DNA of 64,000 nt from Tahibacter amnicola (GTDB lineage Bacteria; Pseudomonadota; Gammaproteobacteria; Xanthomonadales; Rhodanobacteraceae), in contig NZ_CP104694.1 of assembly GCF_025398735.1 (NCBI RefSeq), positions 4,303,001 through 4,367,000 of the forward strand, in the 5' to 3' direction. The notes below the pieces were generated by a model that saw only the letters and a list, made by a program, of their open reading frames with translations, was not told where the DNA came from and made no database searches. Of the stretch, positions 55,970 through 64,000 are shown piece by piece. Both the position numbers and the translations under genes were made by a program. How positions within the stretch are numbered: the stretch's first letter is position 1; each line of letters starts with the position of its first letter.

Positions 55970-56323
55970 GGGGGCGATCGGCTTCGACGGGGGCTTCGAA
56001 ATCACTTGGTGCATGCCGAGGGGGCAGCTTTCCTCGTTAATCCAGCGGCAAAACTCATAGTTGCCAACGACGACAACTACGCTCTGGCCGCTTAAGGCCT
56101 AGCCCGGAACCCACTTGTGCCTGTGCTCGTGGATGTACGGTCATCATCACAGGATCGCTGATGCTTGCCGCCTGACGGTCATCGGCTAACTCCAATCGGG
56201 CTGGTTGTCCGGTGCGCTTCGCACGCTGTGTTGCCGGAGAACGAGATCAAACAGTGCGCTATGCATGTAGAGCCGGGGACGTAGGGCCTTCGGACGCGGG
56301 TTCAATTCCCGCCGCCTCCACCA
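55970..56323 (+). ncRNA. ssrA: Transfer-messenger RNA (tmRNA, SsrA)
   Basis: A 354-base tmRNA that rescues stalled ribosomes and tags the nascent peptide. The 5' end GGGGGCGATCGGCTTCGACG and the 3' end CGCCTCC-A-CCA pair as an acceptor stem (one G-U), and GGTTCAATTCCC near 56299-56310 is the T-arm. The tag frame begins at GCC 56063 and reads ANDDNYALAA before TAA 56093-56095, the usual proteobacterial degradation tag. The CCA end is encoded. It follows smpB and is followed by a strong terminator. Confidence 0.97.
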
Positions 56324-58268: not shown

Positions 58269-59630
58269 TTACGGCGCAGACGCCTGGAAATCCCACCGGT
58301 ACGGCGTTTCCCGCAGGATCCATGTCCCTCCGGTCTCGCCTTTCGGGCCGATGGAAGTGACCTCGGCCACAGTGAAGCGCAAGCCGCCGTCGATCGGCGT
58401 AATGGCTTCGACGAGACTGTCTCCGGCGACCTGGAAGCGGCTTTCCACCGGAAAACTGCCCTGGACGCGCCGCACGAGGTGCCCATTGCTCCGGGAGAAC
58501 TCCGCCCACGACAGCAGGGCGCGATCGCGCACGTCCGGCGCGTATTGCCAGATCACCGCCAGTACGCCGATGCGATCGCCCAGGTCGTAGAGCCGGATGG
58601 GGCGCTCGTGAACACCATAAGGCTGCCCTTCCAACCACGCCATGCGTGTGCGGACATAGGTTCCCTCCGACGTCCATTCGAGGTAACGCTTCCAGGCGGG
58701 ATGCACGACGCCCTGGTTTCCTGCATCCAGCTCGCTGGCGCCGTCGAGGAACACGTCGAACCCATCCACGGTTGCGGCCTGCGAGCGTTTCTGCCGCTCC
58801 TCCACTGCAGCCCGGGTGGTTGGCTGGTGCGCGATGCCGGTTGATGACTCCGCCACCGGGTCGCGTTCGAGTACAGGCACCTCCGCGGGCTCGACAATCG
58901 CGACGGACCCTCCCGGCGAACGCGCCTTGGAAGGATCGCCGCGGAACAATCCCTGTTCCATGCGACGCATCTCATCCAGTCGCAGGCAGCCGAAGGGGAT
59001 GTCGAACGCATCGTGTATGTAGCCGTAGCCGCGCGCGAGTTCGTAGGCCACCTCTCCGGTAGCAGCGTTCTTGACCCGGATGCGCAGGCGATGCTGGGTC
59101 ATCGGAAGGCCCGAGAGATCCGGCAGCCCTTCCGTCACCGGGTCCACCGTGACGCGATACTCGCTGGTAAGGGACGCGACACGTTCCGCCGCCAGGCATT
59201 CGTCCGCGCGCAGACCGAGGTCGATCCAGCTCGCCGGATTGCGCATCGGTCCCGGCGGCGCTGGCGCCCGGTTCGCATATCGCAGACAGGTCGCCTCGCC
59301 CGCCTTGCCAATACGAAACCGCACATATTGGCCCGTTCCCGGCGCCTGGGGCGCGATCGATGCGTTGCTCTCGACAAAATCGACGCCGTCACGCAGCATC
59401 AACCCCACCGCCCAGTGCGCCGCCGTCGTCGTCAGCGCGTGAGGATCCGCATAGACGGACCTGGCAGTGATCGGCCCCAGGGATGCGGGTACCGGATTGG
59501 CCTGGCACCAGGCATCTGTCTCGGCGATTGCCGCCTTGGCCCGCTGCTCGGAATTGCAGCCCTGCAGCACCGCGGATACGGCAAGGGACATGGCAAGCAG
59601 GCAACGATGATTCCGGCGGGCGCGATGCAT
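58269..59630 (-). CDS. Lipoprotein of unknown function, 453 residues
   Basis: The ATG at 59630 has an ideal Shine-Dalgarno (AGGAGA). A lipoprotein signal peptide ends in VLQGC (Cys about 25). The mature protein has a repeated pattern of short beta-like segments, for example FVESNASIAPQAPGTGQYVR, GQYVRFRIGKAGEATCLRYA, YELARGYGYIHDAFDIPFGC, and a C-terminal part with LYDLGDRIGVLAVIWQYAPD and GGLRFTVAEVTSIGPKGETG. No known domain is obvious. It should sit in the inner or outer membrane facing the periplasm. A neighbouring gene of unknown function lies 91 bases upstream on the same strand. Confidence 0.7.
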   Translation of the reverse strand: MHRARRNHRCLLAMSLAVSAVLQGCNSEQRAKAAIAETDAWCQANPVPASLGPITARSVYADPHALTTTAAHWAVGLMLRDGVDFVESNASIAPQAPGTGQYVRFRIGKAGEATCLRYANRAPAPPGPMRNPASWIDLGLRADECLAAERVASLTSEYRVTVDPVTEGLPDLSGLPMTQHRLRIRVKNAATGEVAYELARGYGYIHDAFDIPFGCLRLDEMRRMEQGLFRGDPSKARSPGGSVAIVEPAEVPVLERDPVAESSTGIAHQPTTRAAVEERQKRSQAATVDGFDVFLDGASELDAGNQGVVHPAWKRYLEWTSEGTYVRTRMAWLEGQPYGVHERPIRLYDLGDRIGVLAVIWQYAPDVRDRALLSWAEFSRSNGHLVRRVQGSFPVESRFQVAGDSLVEAITPIDGGLRFTVAEVTSIGPKGETGGTWILRETPYRWDFQASAP

Positions 59631-60402: not shown

Positions 60403-63012
60403 CTATCGCCCACAGATCAACTTGAGCTGATCCACCACACCTCCTCGGCGCACCGCGAATCCCGTCGCCGCCAGTCGCGCCGGGCACTCGATGCGACCGA
60501 ATTCCGCGCCACCATTTCCGCCGGCGCCACCCAGCAGCGACGACGTATCGGTGACCGTGCTGGCAGACGCCAATGGCGAACAGCGCACGCGCAGGCGGTC
60601 GACGAGTGCCCCCGCCCGGCCGGAAATCGCGCTGACGGCCTGGTCGCGGGCACAGGTCAGCCGCGTTGCCGTTCCACCGCTGCCACCGACGACGGTTGCG
60701 TTCGACGGTGTTCCGTCCCAACGGCCACCTGCCGTCGTCTTCACGCAACGCGGTGCTATCGCATCGATGACGGCGCCGCTGCGGACGAAAACCCCGGCCA
60801 TGACTTCACCCCGGCCGCACTTCGTCGTCGTCGCCACGCCGCCATTGCCGCCGACGGCGCGGCTGGTCCACGGTGTATCCACGGTAGCGTCGGCTGGCTT
60901 GGTGGTGCAAAGCAACTGCAGTTGATCGATGTAAGCCCCGGCCCGCCCCTTGAAACCCGCGGCCAGTCGCCCTTCGGGGCAACGGACCGGGCCGAACACC
61001 GCGCCGAATTCGCCACCGGCGGTATCGGTCGTGCGGCGATCCTCCGGATCGGCCGACGGCGCGCATTCCAGTTGCAGCTGGTCAACAAAGGCACCGGAGC
61101 GGCCCCGCATACCGACGACGACACGCCCATCCTGGCAGCGGCGGGCAAATGCCTCGCCGCCGGTCCCGCCAACGCTCGCGGTGCTGCTGTCGCTGCCGTC
61201 GGCGAAGGCACAGACAGCCTGCAGCTGGTCGATGAACAGTCCGGCGCGACCGCGCACCCCGACTAGCAGCTGGCCCTGGGGGCAACGCAACTGGAATGGC
61301 GATCCACCACTGCCACCAACGGCGATCGTCACGCTGTCGAAATCGGCCAGCGCGCGACGCAGATCCGGGCGCCCGCCGATGCCGGCTCCCACGAGCGCGC
61401 CACCGGCGTTGCTCGTTTCCACCAACAGCCGACGCATCTGCTCCGGCGTCAACACGCCATGCCCGCTGGCATTCATCACACCCTGGATCGACAGCACCGC
61501 ACCCGCCACGATGGGTGAGGCCGACGACGTACCGCCGAATGCCCGGGTATAGAACTGATTGACGTCACTGCCGTTCACGCGGATGTTCACGTCGCTGTCG
61601 TCGCCTTCGCGATCGACATGGCCTGCCGCCATCACGCCGCTGCCCCACCCGTTTACATCCACGCGACCGCCGTGATTGCTGAAACAGGCACGCTCCCGGC
61701 GCCCACCGACCGTCGCGCCCACGAGGATCGCACCGGAATCCCGGCGTGTCCGGTCGAACCGGTTCTCGTACTCGGCGCGGTCCAGATCCATTTCGCCGTT
61801 GCCGGCAGCCTCGACGACGATGATGCCAGCAGCCGTTGCCGTGCTGATGGCGTCAAAACTGTCGGGAAAATATTCCATGGGCACGAACTCGAACTGTCTG
61901 CAGTCCTCGCCGTCGCCACGGCACGAACAGGCCGCCCCCACCGGAGGCCCCGGCGAGTGCTGCTCGATCAGGATCACGTCGCCCGGGCGCAACGGCTCGG
62001 TTGCGCGGATCACGGCGTCCGCGACGCTGGCGTCGTGGATCGCCGAACCGCCCCCCAGTACCGCCCGCAACGCATTGGGCGAAATCGTGGAGGCGGCACC
62101 CCAGCTGGCGTCACTGGCGATGCCCGTTACCCCATGGCCGTCGTCCTTGGCGACCAGCTCGCTGACCACGGATGTGCCATGGTGAGTCTTCAGATCGCCG
62201 GCGTTGACGCCGCTGAGGATCTCGTTGAGAAACGGCACGCCGGAGTACCAGAAAGGCTTGGGCAGATCCTCGTGGTCCACGTTCCAGTTGCCTTCGATAT
62301 CGATGATGCGCATGCCCGCGCCCCGGCCACCGGCCAACTCCCAGGCAGAGACGGCGTCGATACCGCCGTCCGCCGCCGGTCTCAGGTAACCCTGCCCGCT
62401 TTCGAAGTCAGGCGTCTGCGGTGGCACGTCGGCATTGCGGGGAAACGGCGGCAGGTAGGCCACCTCCACGAGCGGCGACTGGTTCAGGCGTGTCGCGATG
62501 GCCTCGCCCTGCACGGAGGGATCCAGGTAAATCCAGTAGTAACTGTCCAGGCGCGGCATCTGGCGACAGGAGCGCGCCTGCGCCTGCTCGTGCAGTGCCG
62601 CAAGGCGGGATGGTGGGTCGGAAAAATAGGGGCGCACGCCGCGCACCGCACGATCGGCCAACAGTCGATTCAATTCGTCGATTTGCATTCCGATCACCCC
62701 GGCCATCGGCGAGGACGCTGCAAACGTCGCAGCGCGAGCGCCGTCGCCGCCATAAAGCCGCCCGCCATCCCGGAGCTTCACCACGACGCGGTCCCGGTAG
62801 AGCCCTGGCCAGAAACGCACGCGATCGGGCTTTACGTGAGGTGTGCGCGGCCGTGGACACAGCGCCTCGTCGCCAGCGGAAAGTGAGGGAGCAAGTGTCG
62901 GGCGGTCCGGAAGCGTTACAAGCCCCGGTCGTGGCTGGGCCGGCAGCAGCCCGGGCGCCAGTAACGCACCCAGCAACAGCCAGCGACGCAGGGTGAATAG
63001 AGGAAGGATCAT
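60403..63012 (-). CDS. Secreted S8 (subtilisin-like) serine peptidase with six C-terminal cysteine-paired repeats
   Basis: An 869-residue exported protease from the ATG at 63012. Residues 1-26 are a signal peptide. An N-terminal pro-like region (to about 215) precedes the catalytic domain: Asp238 in MRIIDIEGNWNVDHEDL, His278 in KTHHGTSVVSELVAKDDG, oxyanion Asn405 in VVEAAGNGEMDL and Ser496 in AFGGTSSASPIVAGAV. From about residue 560 to the end there are six repeats of about 55 residues with the pattern GGxGG-x-F...CP-x-G...GRAG-x-x-IDQLQ-x-x-C. Each repeat has two cysteines, probably a disulfide. The repeats loosely recall jacalin-like lectin sequences but I do not assign them. Divergent from a membrane regulator gene (162 bases). 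Confidence 0.92.
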   Translation of the reverse strand: MILPLFTLRRWLLLGALLAPGLLPAQPRPGLVTLPDRPTLAPSLSAGDEALCPRPRTPHVKPDRVRFWPGLYRDRVVVKLRDGGRLYGGDGARAATFAASSPMAGVIGMQIDELNRLLADRAVRGVRPYFSDPPSRLAALHEQAQARSCRQMPRLDSYYWIYLDPSVQGEAIATRLNQSPLVEVAYLPPFPRNADVPPQTPDFESGQGYLRPAADGGIDAVSAWELAGGRGAGMRIIDIEGNWNVDHEDLPKPFWYSGVPFLNEILSGVNAGDLKTHHGTSVVSELVAKDDGHGVTGIASDASWGAASTISPNALRAVLGGGSAIHDASVADAVIRATEPLRPGDVILIEQHSPGPPVGAACSCRGDGEDCRQFEFVPMEYFPDSFDAISTATAAGIIVVEAAGNGEMDLDRAEYENRFDRTRRDSGAILVGATVGGRRERACFSNHGGRVDVNGWGSGVMAAGHVDREGDDSDVNIRVNGSDVNQFYTRAFGGTSSASPIVAGAVLSIQGVMNASGHGVLTPEQMRRLLVETSNAGGALVGAGIGGRPDLRRALADFDSVTIAVGGSGGSPFQLRCPQGQLLVGVRGRAGLFIDQLQAVCAFADGSDSSTASVGGTGGEAFARRCQDGRVVVGMRGRSGAFVDQLQLECAPSADPEDRRTTDTAGGEFGAVFGPVRCPEGRLAAGFKGRAGAYIDQLQLLCTTKPADATVDTPWTSRAVGGNGGVATTTKCGRGEVMAGVFVRSGAVIDAIAPRCVKTTAGGRWDGTPSNATVVGGSGGTATRLTCARDQAVSAISGRAGALVDRLRVRCSPLASASTVTDTSSLLGGAGGNGGAEFGRIECPARLAATGFAVRRGGVVDQLKLICGR

Positions 63013-63174: not shown

Positions 63175-64000
63175 ATGACTCTCACCGCGTCCGCGACGCC
63201 TGCACCGACGGCTGATGCCTACCGCTTCGGCCGCTTCCGGCTGGATCTGCGCCGCCAGCAATTGTTCGTCGACGAACGCGAGGTACCGATCGAGCCCAAG
63301 CCCTTCGCCCTGATGGCGGCCCTGGCCGAAGCTGGCGGCACTGTCGTCAGCAAGCCGTCGCTGCATGCGCGGCTATGGCCACGCCAGGCCGTCACCGACG
63401 CCGTGCTGACCCAATGCATCCTGCGCGCCCGGCAGGCACTGGGCGACGATGCGCATGAGGTCATCGTGACCGTGCATCGGCAGGGGTACCGCCTGGGCGT
63501 TGACGTGACGGCCGAACCAACGCCAGCGCGCGCGGTGCCCGGCGATAGCGCGGACACTGGATCGCCGGCGCGTCGGCATCGACGCCTGTCCACCTTCGCG
63601 CTGCTGGGGTGCCTGGCGACGGTGCTGGTGCTCGGCATGGTGGTTCGGCGTCAATCCGCGACCGCGCAACGCCCGTCGGTTGCCGTGATGCCAATCGAGA
63701 TCCGCAGTGAATCGGAGGAGGACCGACGCATCGCCGAAGGATTGAGCGATGCCCTCCTCATTCGCCTGGCGCAGGAACCGGACCTGCGCGTCCCCGCCAG
63801 GACCTCGGTCCGGGTCGCCTCCACGCATCGGGATGACGTCCAGCGGGTCGGCAGGGAGCTGGGCGTCACGCACGTGTTCGATGCGGTGATGTCGCGGACG
63901 GCAGAAGGGTTCACGCTGCACGCCAGCCTGGTTCGCAGCGATGACGGATTCCAGTCCTGGGCGCAGACCTTCCCGATTGCGACCGGCGACCTGGCATCGG
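63175..64000 (+). CDS. CadC-like winged-helix membrane regulator, partial (cut by window end)
   Basis: The frame is open to the last base, so the C-terminus is missing; 275 residues are visible. Residues about 16-105 form an OmpR/PhoB-type winged helix (YRFGRFRLDLRRQQLFVDER, IEPKPFALMAALAEAGGTVV, TVHRQGYRLGVDV). A membrane helix lies at about 140-158 (LSTFALLGCLATVLVLGMVV). The periplasmic part starts like the TolB-N/adenylate-cyclase-associated domain found in such regulators (SVAVMPIEIRSESEEDRRIA, then EGLSDALLIRLAQEPDLRVP). TPR repeats may follow beyond the window. It is divergent from the S8 peptidase gene and may regulate it, which is an inference from position only. Confidence 0.88.
   Translation, partial: MTLTASATPAPTADAYRFGRFRLDLRRQQLFVDEREVPIEPKPFALMAALAEAGGTVVSKPSLHARLWPRQAVTDAVLTQCILRARQALGDDAHEVIVTVHRQGYRLGVDVTAEPTPARAVPGDSADTGSPARRHRRLSTFALLGCLATVLVLGMVVRRQSATAQRPSVAVMPIEIRSESEEDRRIAEGLSDALLIRLAQEPDLRVPARTSVRVASTHRDDVQRVGRELGVTHVFDAVMSRTAEGFTLHASLVRSDDGFQSWAQTFPIATGDLAS

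Follow-up and report, generated by a model that had tools for sequence, protein, structure and literature searches.

Most work on jacalin-type lectin domains has been done in plants and animals. VMO-I is a cysteine-bearing beta-prism of three repeats of approximately 55 residues, which is not known to possess the jacalin-type sugar loops. The mannose pocket of jacalin-related lectins has been described as consisting of a GG loop and a GxxxD loop that form hydrogen bonds with the sugar, and ZG16 as having one such GxxxD site (PMC4059138). Griffithsin was reported to contain GGSGG three times, together with three aspartates that are critical; when all three were mutated, its binding to a high-mannose glycoprotein was nearly abolished (PMC6835697). 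According to a further study, lipids or proteins can also be ligands of beta-prisms, as in the case of the APC-beta domain of TgPLP1 (PMC6294395).

Here we analysed one window, i.e. a stretch of 64,000 nucleotides from Tahibacter amnicola, in which a gene on the minus strand encodes an S8 protein with a cysteine-rich, jacalin-related tail. For the words searched, no description of a bacterial fusion of this type came up in the open-licence literature. The protein comprises 869 amino acids from an ATG at 63012 to the stop at 60403; an upstream GTG is an alternative start of the protease frame and would give 884 amino acids. The following parts were assigned outside the tail:

60403..63012, minus strand: whole gene of 869 codons for a predicted secreted S8 peptidase that ends in two beta-prism-like domains of three units each (open reading frame and Pfam)
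62935..63012, minus strand: signal-peptide-like N-terminus, residues 1-26 (by eye: charged start, hydrophobic run, end A-Q)
62383..62934, minus strand: prodomain-like segment, residues 27-210 approximately (from its position and because L003-L005 align with it in part)
61342..62340, minus strand: Peptidase_S8 catalytic domain, about residues 225-557, with D238, H278, N405 and S496 (PF00082 and alignment)

In the Pfam scan, PF00082 (Peptidase_S8) matched residues 275-536 (1.5e-18, 67.6 bits, cut-off 21.8), and the prodomain-like segment gave no Pfam match. The Asp/His/Ser triad and the oxyanion Asn occur in the order D-H-N-S, as in peptidase family S8. Since D238, H278, N405 and S496 are invariant in the alignment with the relatives L003, L004 and L005, we expect an active protease. 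The three relatives are S8 proteins of the same order but of different families, with 29-33% identity over the alignment, and apart from the window protein itself they were the only matches at E 1e-30 or better in a whole-protein search of 99 genomes; none of the seven congeners had a whole-protein match at this threshold. They have the same catalytic region, with the catalytic residues common to all, but lack the cysteine units. Downstream of the S8 part, L004 carries DUF11 and other sequence, L003 carries other sequence, and L005 has nothing within the stretch seen. Because the S8 relatives end otherwise, the cysteine units look like a tail swapped onto an existing type of protease.

The tail itself is highly regular. 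An earlier note, made from the letters of this DNA, had described six C-terminal units with two cysteines each, which was borne out by a shuffle-controlled count: the final 311 residues contain 12 cysteines in six pairs, each exactly 24 residues apart (577/601, 626/650, 678/702, 732/756, 787/811 and 843/867), whereas 20,000 shuffles of the tail gave at most five pairs at any spacing from 5 to 60. The units were assigned from the sequence as follows:

61207..61320, minus strand: unit 1, GGSGG, C577-C601, GLFID
61060..61173, minus strand: unit 2, GGTGG, C626-C650, GAFVD
60904..61017, minus strand: unit 3, GGEFG, C678-C702, GAYID
60742..60855, minus strand: unit 4, GGNGG, C732-C756, GAVID, followed by the linker AGGRWDG
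60577..60690, minus strand: unit 5, GGSGG, C787-C811, GALVD
60406..60531, minus strand: unit 6, GGAGGNGG, C843-C867, GGVVD

Their consensus reads VGGxGGxAFxxRCPxG....G..GRAGAxIDQLQLxC, and in consensus numbering G7, G8, G11, C18, R30, G32, D36 and C42 are invariant in all six. Almost every pair of units (14 of 15) outscores all 500 shuffles, the exception being units 4 and 6, whose score was reached by 3 of the 500. One detail of the earlier description needs correction: the GGxGG start is found in five of the six units, but unit 3 has GGEFG instead. The proposed loss of similarity towards the end is visible in comparison with unit 1, to which units 2-6 are identical in 17, 16, 9, 10 and 9 of 32 positions, although between units 3 and 6 there are 14 identities in 32. 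An extra residue ahead of the first cysteine is also common to units 3 and 6.

The relationship to jacalin-type lectins is supported by several comparisons. A profile search placed PF01419 (Jacalin) above its curated cut-off of 22 on the tail (7.6e-12, 46.3 bits) as well as on the whole protein (1.6e-9, 38.8 bits). Positions 2-133 of the 136 in this profile align to residues 718-863, which correspond to units 4-6. The best PDB sequence matches are jacalin-type lectins, with 2.1e-7 for the top one. Furthermore, nine three-unit segments of the cysteine-bearing family were compared by hhalign with four cysteine-free bacterial jacalin domains, which are not a random sample, since two came from the profile search with the cysteine module and two from a PF01419 search; this comparison gave a probability of 97.9 and a score of 80.1, while 20 column shuffles reached at most 0.7 and 16.4. 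The alignment runs end to end, unit on unit, with GxxxD over GxxxD in all three. The PF01419 search over related genomes found the domain in at least 8 of 99 genomes, a count that misses the window gene, which the direct scan puts above the cut-off.

The same results, together with the architecture of the relatives, bear on how the six units are grouped. By eye, exactly three units are present in L016 (of which L023 is a named copy, counted once), L025, L026, L032 and L033, and six in L031. The 24-residue cysteine spacing is broken in 5 of the 27 family units, always in the second of three. A linker resembling aGxW follows unit 4 of the window protein and the first units of L026 and of both L031 halves; it is absent after the first units of L016, L025, L032 and L033 and after unit 1 of the window protein. 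Given the span of the Jacalin match, the three-unit relatives, the positions of the spacing breaks, the extra residue of units 3 and 6 and the linker, we divide the tail into two three-unit domains:

60904..61338, minus strand: predicted beta-prism A, units 1-3, residues 559-703 (sequence and profile comparison)
60406..60864, minus strand: predicted beta-prism B, units 4-6, residues 717-869, best Pfam Jacalin stretch 718-863 (Pfam and model)

Judged from these sequence features, the tail most likely represents two beta-prism I domains of three Greek-key units each, and not six lectins. The jacalin-type assignment made earlier was retained on the basis of PF01419, the PDB matches, the hhalign comparison and the mannose-site motifs, but six independent lectins gave way to two three-unit domains. 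With the jacalin-related lectins (PF01419: banana lectin, griffithsin, ZG16) the tail has in common the GG and GxxxD loops and, as predicted, the three Greek-key units per domain; in contrast to them, each window unit adds an invariant cysteine pair. The six-unit, cysteine-bearing tail of this S8 protein is real.

Structure models, the check by which the earlier note would have been refuted had another scaffold appeared, were built from three-row alignments and were weak, with a pLDDT of 46.9 for units 1-3 and a pLDDT of 60.1 and pTM of 0.59 for units 4-6. Jacalin-type lectins head the Foldseek list for the units 4-6 model, where E was at least 0.17 and no match was significant. In VIA-align, Z was at most 4.2 and likewise no match was significant; the leading Vip3A chains (Z 4.2 and 3.9) were not counted as evidence. 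Chains of PCSK9, resistin and VMO-I were not among the fold matches listed for this model.

How could such a tail serve a protease? We think it on balance probable that the protein is an exported S8 protease tethered to a sugar-bearing surface by two disulfide-bearing beta-prism I domains, a scheme in which we infer the export route, the formation and pairing of the disulfides, the binding of sugar and its avidity, and what kind of surface is involved. After export, the protein would mature into an active subtilisin-type (S8) protease, and the two C-terminal beta-prism I domains would hold it on a carbohydrate-bearing surface. The GGxGG and GxxxD loops of the units would together form a shallow jacalin-type sugar pocket, and up to six weak sites could act together, as the three of griffithsin do. 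The paired cysteines would probably form disulfides, which may make the domain more robust in the extracellular environment and protect it from proteases, the enzyme itself among them. Prey or host surfaces as the target, as suggested in the earlier note, are a guess.

The loops are central for this assumption. All six window units have GxxxD and all but unit 3 have GGxGG, so up to six predicted sugar sites are possible in the tail. With GxxxD present in every unit of both domains, the window tail is closer to griffithsin with its three sites (as described in PMC6835697) than to ZG16. Across the family, GxxxD is found in 16 of 27 units and the GG loop in 18 of 27. Among the seven proteins compared, the window protein has the best-preserved GG and GxxxD loops, and their retention is the strongest sign of what may be a working multivalent lectin. 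GxxxD is missing in 11 of the 27 family units, among them all three of L026, so sugar binding is maybe not the role of every member; the L026-type module may have lost the loop and may bind another ligand.

Both cysteines are kept in 27 of 27 family units, which for a secreted protein suggests disulfides within or between the units. Cysteine-bearing units arranged three per domain are also the trait of VMO-I, and here they are found in all 27 units and in five single-module proteins. The tail could instead be a VMO-I-like disulfide beta-prism with a mainly structural or protein-binding role, as stabiliser of the protease or as its anchor to an extracellular matrix protein, and with no sugar site. 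The VOMI profile (PF03762) indeed finds the tail with 2.6e-4 and 21.6 bits (whole protein 15 bits) and, at E up to 1, three of the nine three-unit segments. Its length of 167 positions would accommodate three units of some 55 residues, and some partners of the related modules are matrix-like, e.g. a collagen-like protein. Nevertheless, we regard this explanation as unlikely: every VOMI score stays below the cut-off of 25 bits, whereas Jacalin passes its own, and almost every window unit retains the GG and GxxxD loops, which a scaffold could do without. VMO-I differs from the window protein in being an animal egg protein without a protease.

A second group of disulfide-bearing beta-prisms consists of the PCSK9 V-domain and the APC-beta domain of TgPLP1, which are described as pseudo-threefold (PMC6294395), as is predicted for the tail. 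By their example the tail would bind membrane lipids or a receptor protein. In PCSK9 the order of parts is alike, a subtilase followed by a pseudo-threefold, cysteine-paired beta-prism, as far as described in PMC6294395, and we treat this parallel as an analogy. In the same source both folds are characterised as double-layered with more cysteines per unit, APC-beta having four conserved ones per repeat, against the single pair in each window unit; further, neither the PCSK9-tail families nor APC-beta gave a sequence match to the window protein at E up to 10. The one other hint came from L026, which matched Resistin with 0.0042, below the cut-off; as a weak match in one of nine members that may be cysteine-driven, it was discarded as evidence. 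Lipid or receptor binding therefore appears very improbable to us. Least credible of all is that the repeats do not bind anything and serve as a passive spacer or stalk, or that they are a secretion or sorting signal at the C-terminus which is cleaved off once the protein is exported. This would suit the C-terminal position of the module on several secreted proteins, but L025 has it N-terminal to a CAP domain and in L032 and L033 it accounts for a large part of the protein, neither of which fits a C-terminal sorting tag, and the loop glycines and aspartates are conserved beyond the needs of a spacer.

The reading of the tail as a sugar-directed lectin can also be considered in the light of the proteins that carry related modules. 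L031 has six units on a galactose/glyoxal-oxidase-like Kelch protein with GO-like_E_set, L025 combines the module with CAP, L016 is the collagen-like protein, from a Chromatiales MAG, and L032 and L033 are smaller proteins in which the module makes up a large part and no other Pfam domain was found. L026 (292-2112, minus strand) is a frame of 606 amino acids with one cysteine module, further segments, CxxCH haem-like motifs near the end and no Pfam match. The genome searches covered drawn samples of genomes other than that of the window, in which the cysteine module was found in 3 of 397 genomes (order sample), 1 of 368 (class sample) and 2 of 397 (phylum sample, with two further hits, L027 and L028, that are cysteine-free). 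A second profile, also run on a class sample, gave 1 of 368, apart from the weak partial match L036, and a two-pattern scan of named genomes yielded one module relative. The phages, plasmids and viral contigs searched contained no module relative, and none of the six module proteins found in other genomes combined the module with an S8 protease.

Hence, the cysteine module behaves as a portable accessory domain that is rare in the samples drawn, and because it is spread over unrelated, mostly secreted-looking proteins, a function in targeting or adhesion is expected. It was also asked whether the six-unit cassettes of the window protein and L031 go back to a single block transfer. The best cross pair, window domain B with L031 domain A, scored 270, compared with 244 and 267 for the pairs within each protein, so this candidate was no better supported than separate duplications and was dropped. 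As a wider and rather doubtful proposal, cysteine-paired bacterial beta-prism lectins standing between jacalin-related lectins and VMO-I might circulate as a plug-in cassette that targets secreted proteins of unrelated kinds (S8 protease, CAP, collagen-like and galactose/glyoxal-oxidase-like), with the subtilase version as the bacterial counterpart of the animal PCSK9 architecture. The module on such varied secreted proteins would be a compact case of bacteria aiming enzymes at sugar-coated surfaces, and if the disulfides and the six sites are real, the module would represent a naturally multivalent lectin of robust build and would connect jacalins and VMO-I in sequence.

Cysteine-free jacalin domains were met as well. 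Two Cry-like proteins of the same genus resemble the window protein in their C-terminal jacalin domain but are cysteine-free and carry Endotoxin_N: L006 consists of a ricin-type lectin, Endotoxin_N and Jacalin, L013 of Endotoxin_N and Jacalin. By eye, L007, L009-L012 and L014 from the same genus or family are alike to these two, several of them with Lys/Ala-rich tails. In L028 (391-1944) the domain lies at the C-terminus of a frame of 517 amino acids, the remainder of which has no Pfam match, and in L027 it is a stand-alone frame of 151 amino acids.

Regarding the genomic surroundings, the protease gene lies head to head with a regulator gene, with 162 bases between them:

63175..63999, plus strand: CadC-like regulator (Trans_reg_C and TPR; 695 amino acids, runs off the window; Pfam)

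From this head-to-head position, the regulator may control the protease. On the other side of the protease, 58269-59630 (minus strand) encodes a lipoprotein-like protein of 453 amino acids with no Pfam match. At the thresholds used, the protease, the regulator and the 453-amino-acid protein were absent from all seven congeners, so the stretch looks species-specific. Near it lies a tmRNA gene (55970-56323, plus strand) with the tag ANDDNYALAA. An integration island at this gene was considered and dropped, since a search for a second copy of the tmRNA 3' end found none in the window or in L040, the first 20 kb beyond it, and no exact one genome-wide. Just beyond the window and directly after the CadC-like regulator, L040 (2290-6882, plus strand) encodes a protein of 1530 amino acids with a PD40 propeller, Big_9, cadherin-like and DUF11 domains.
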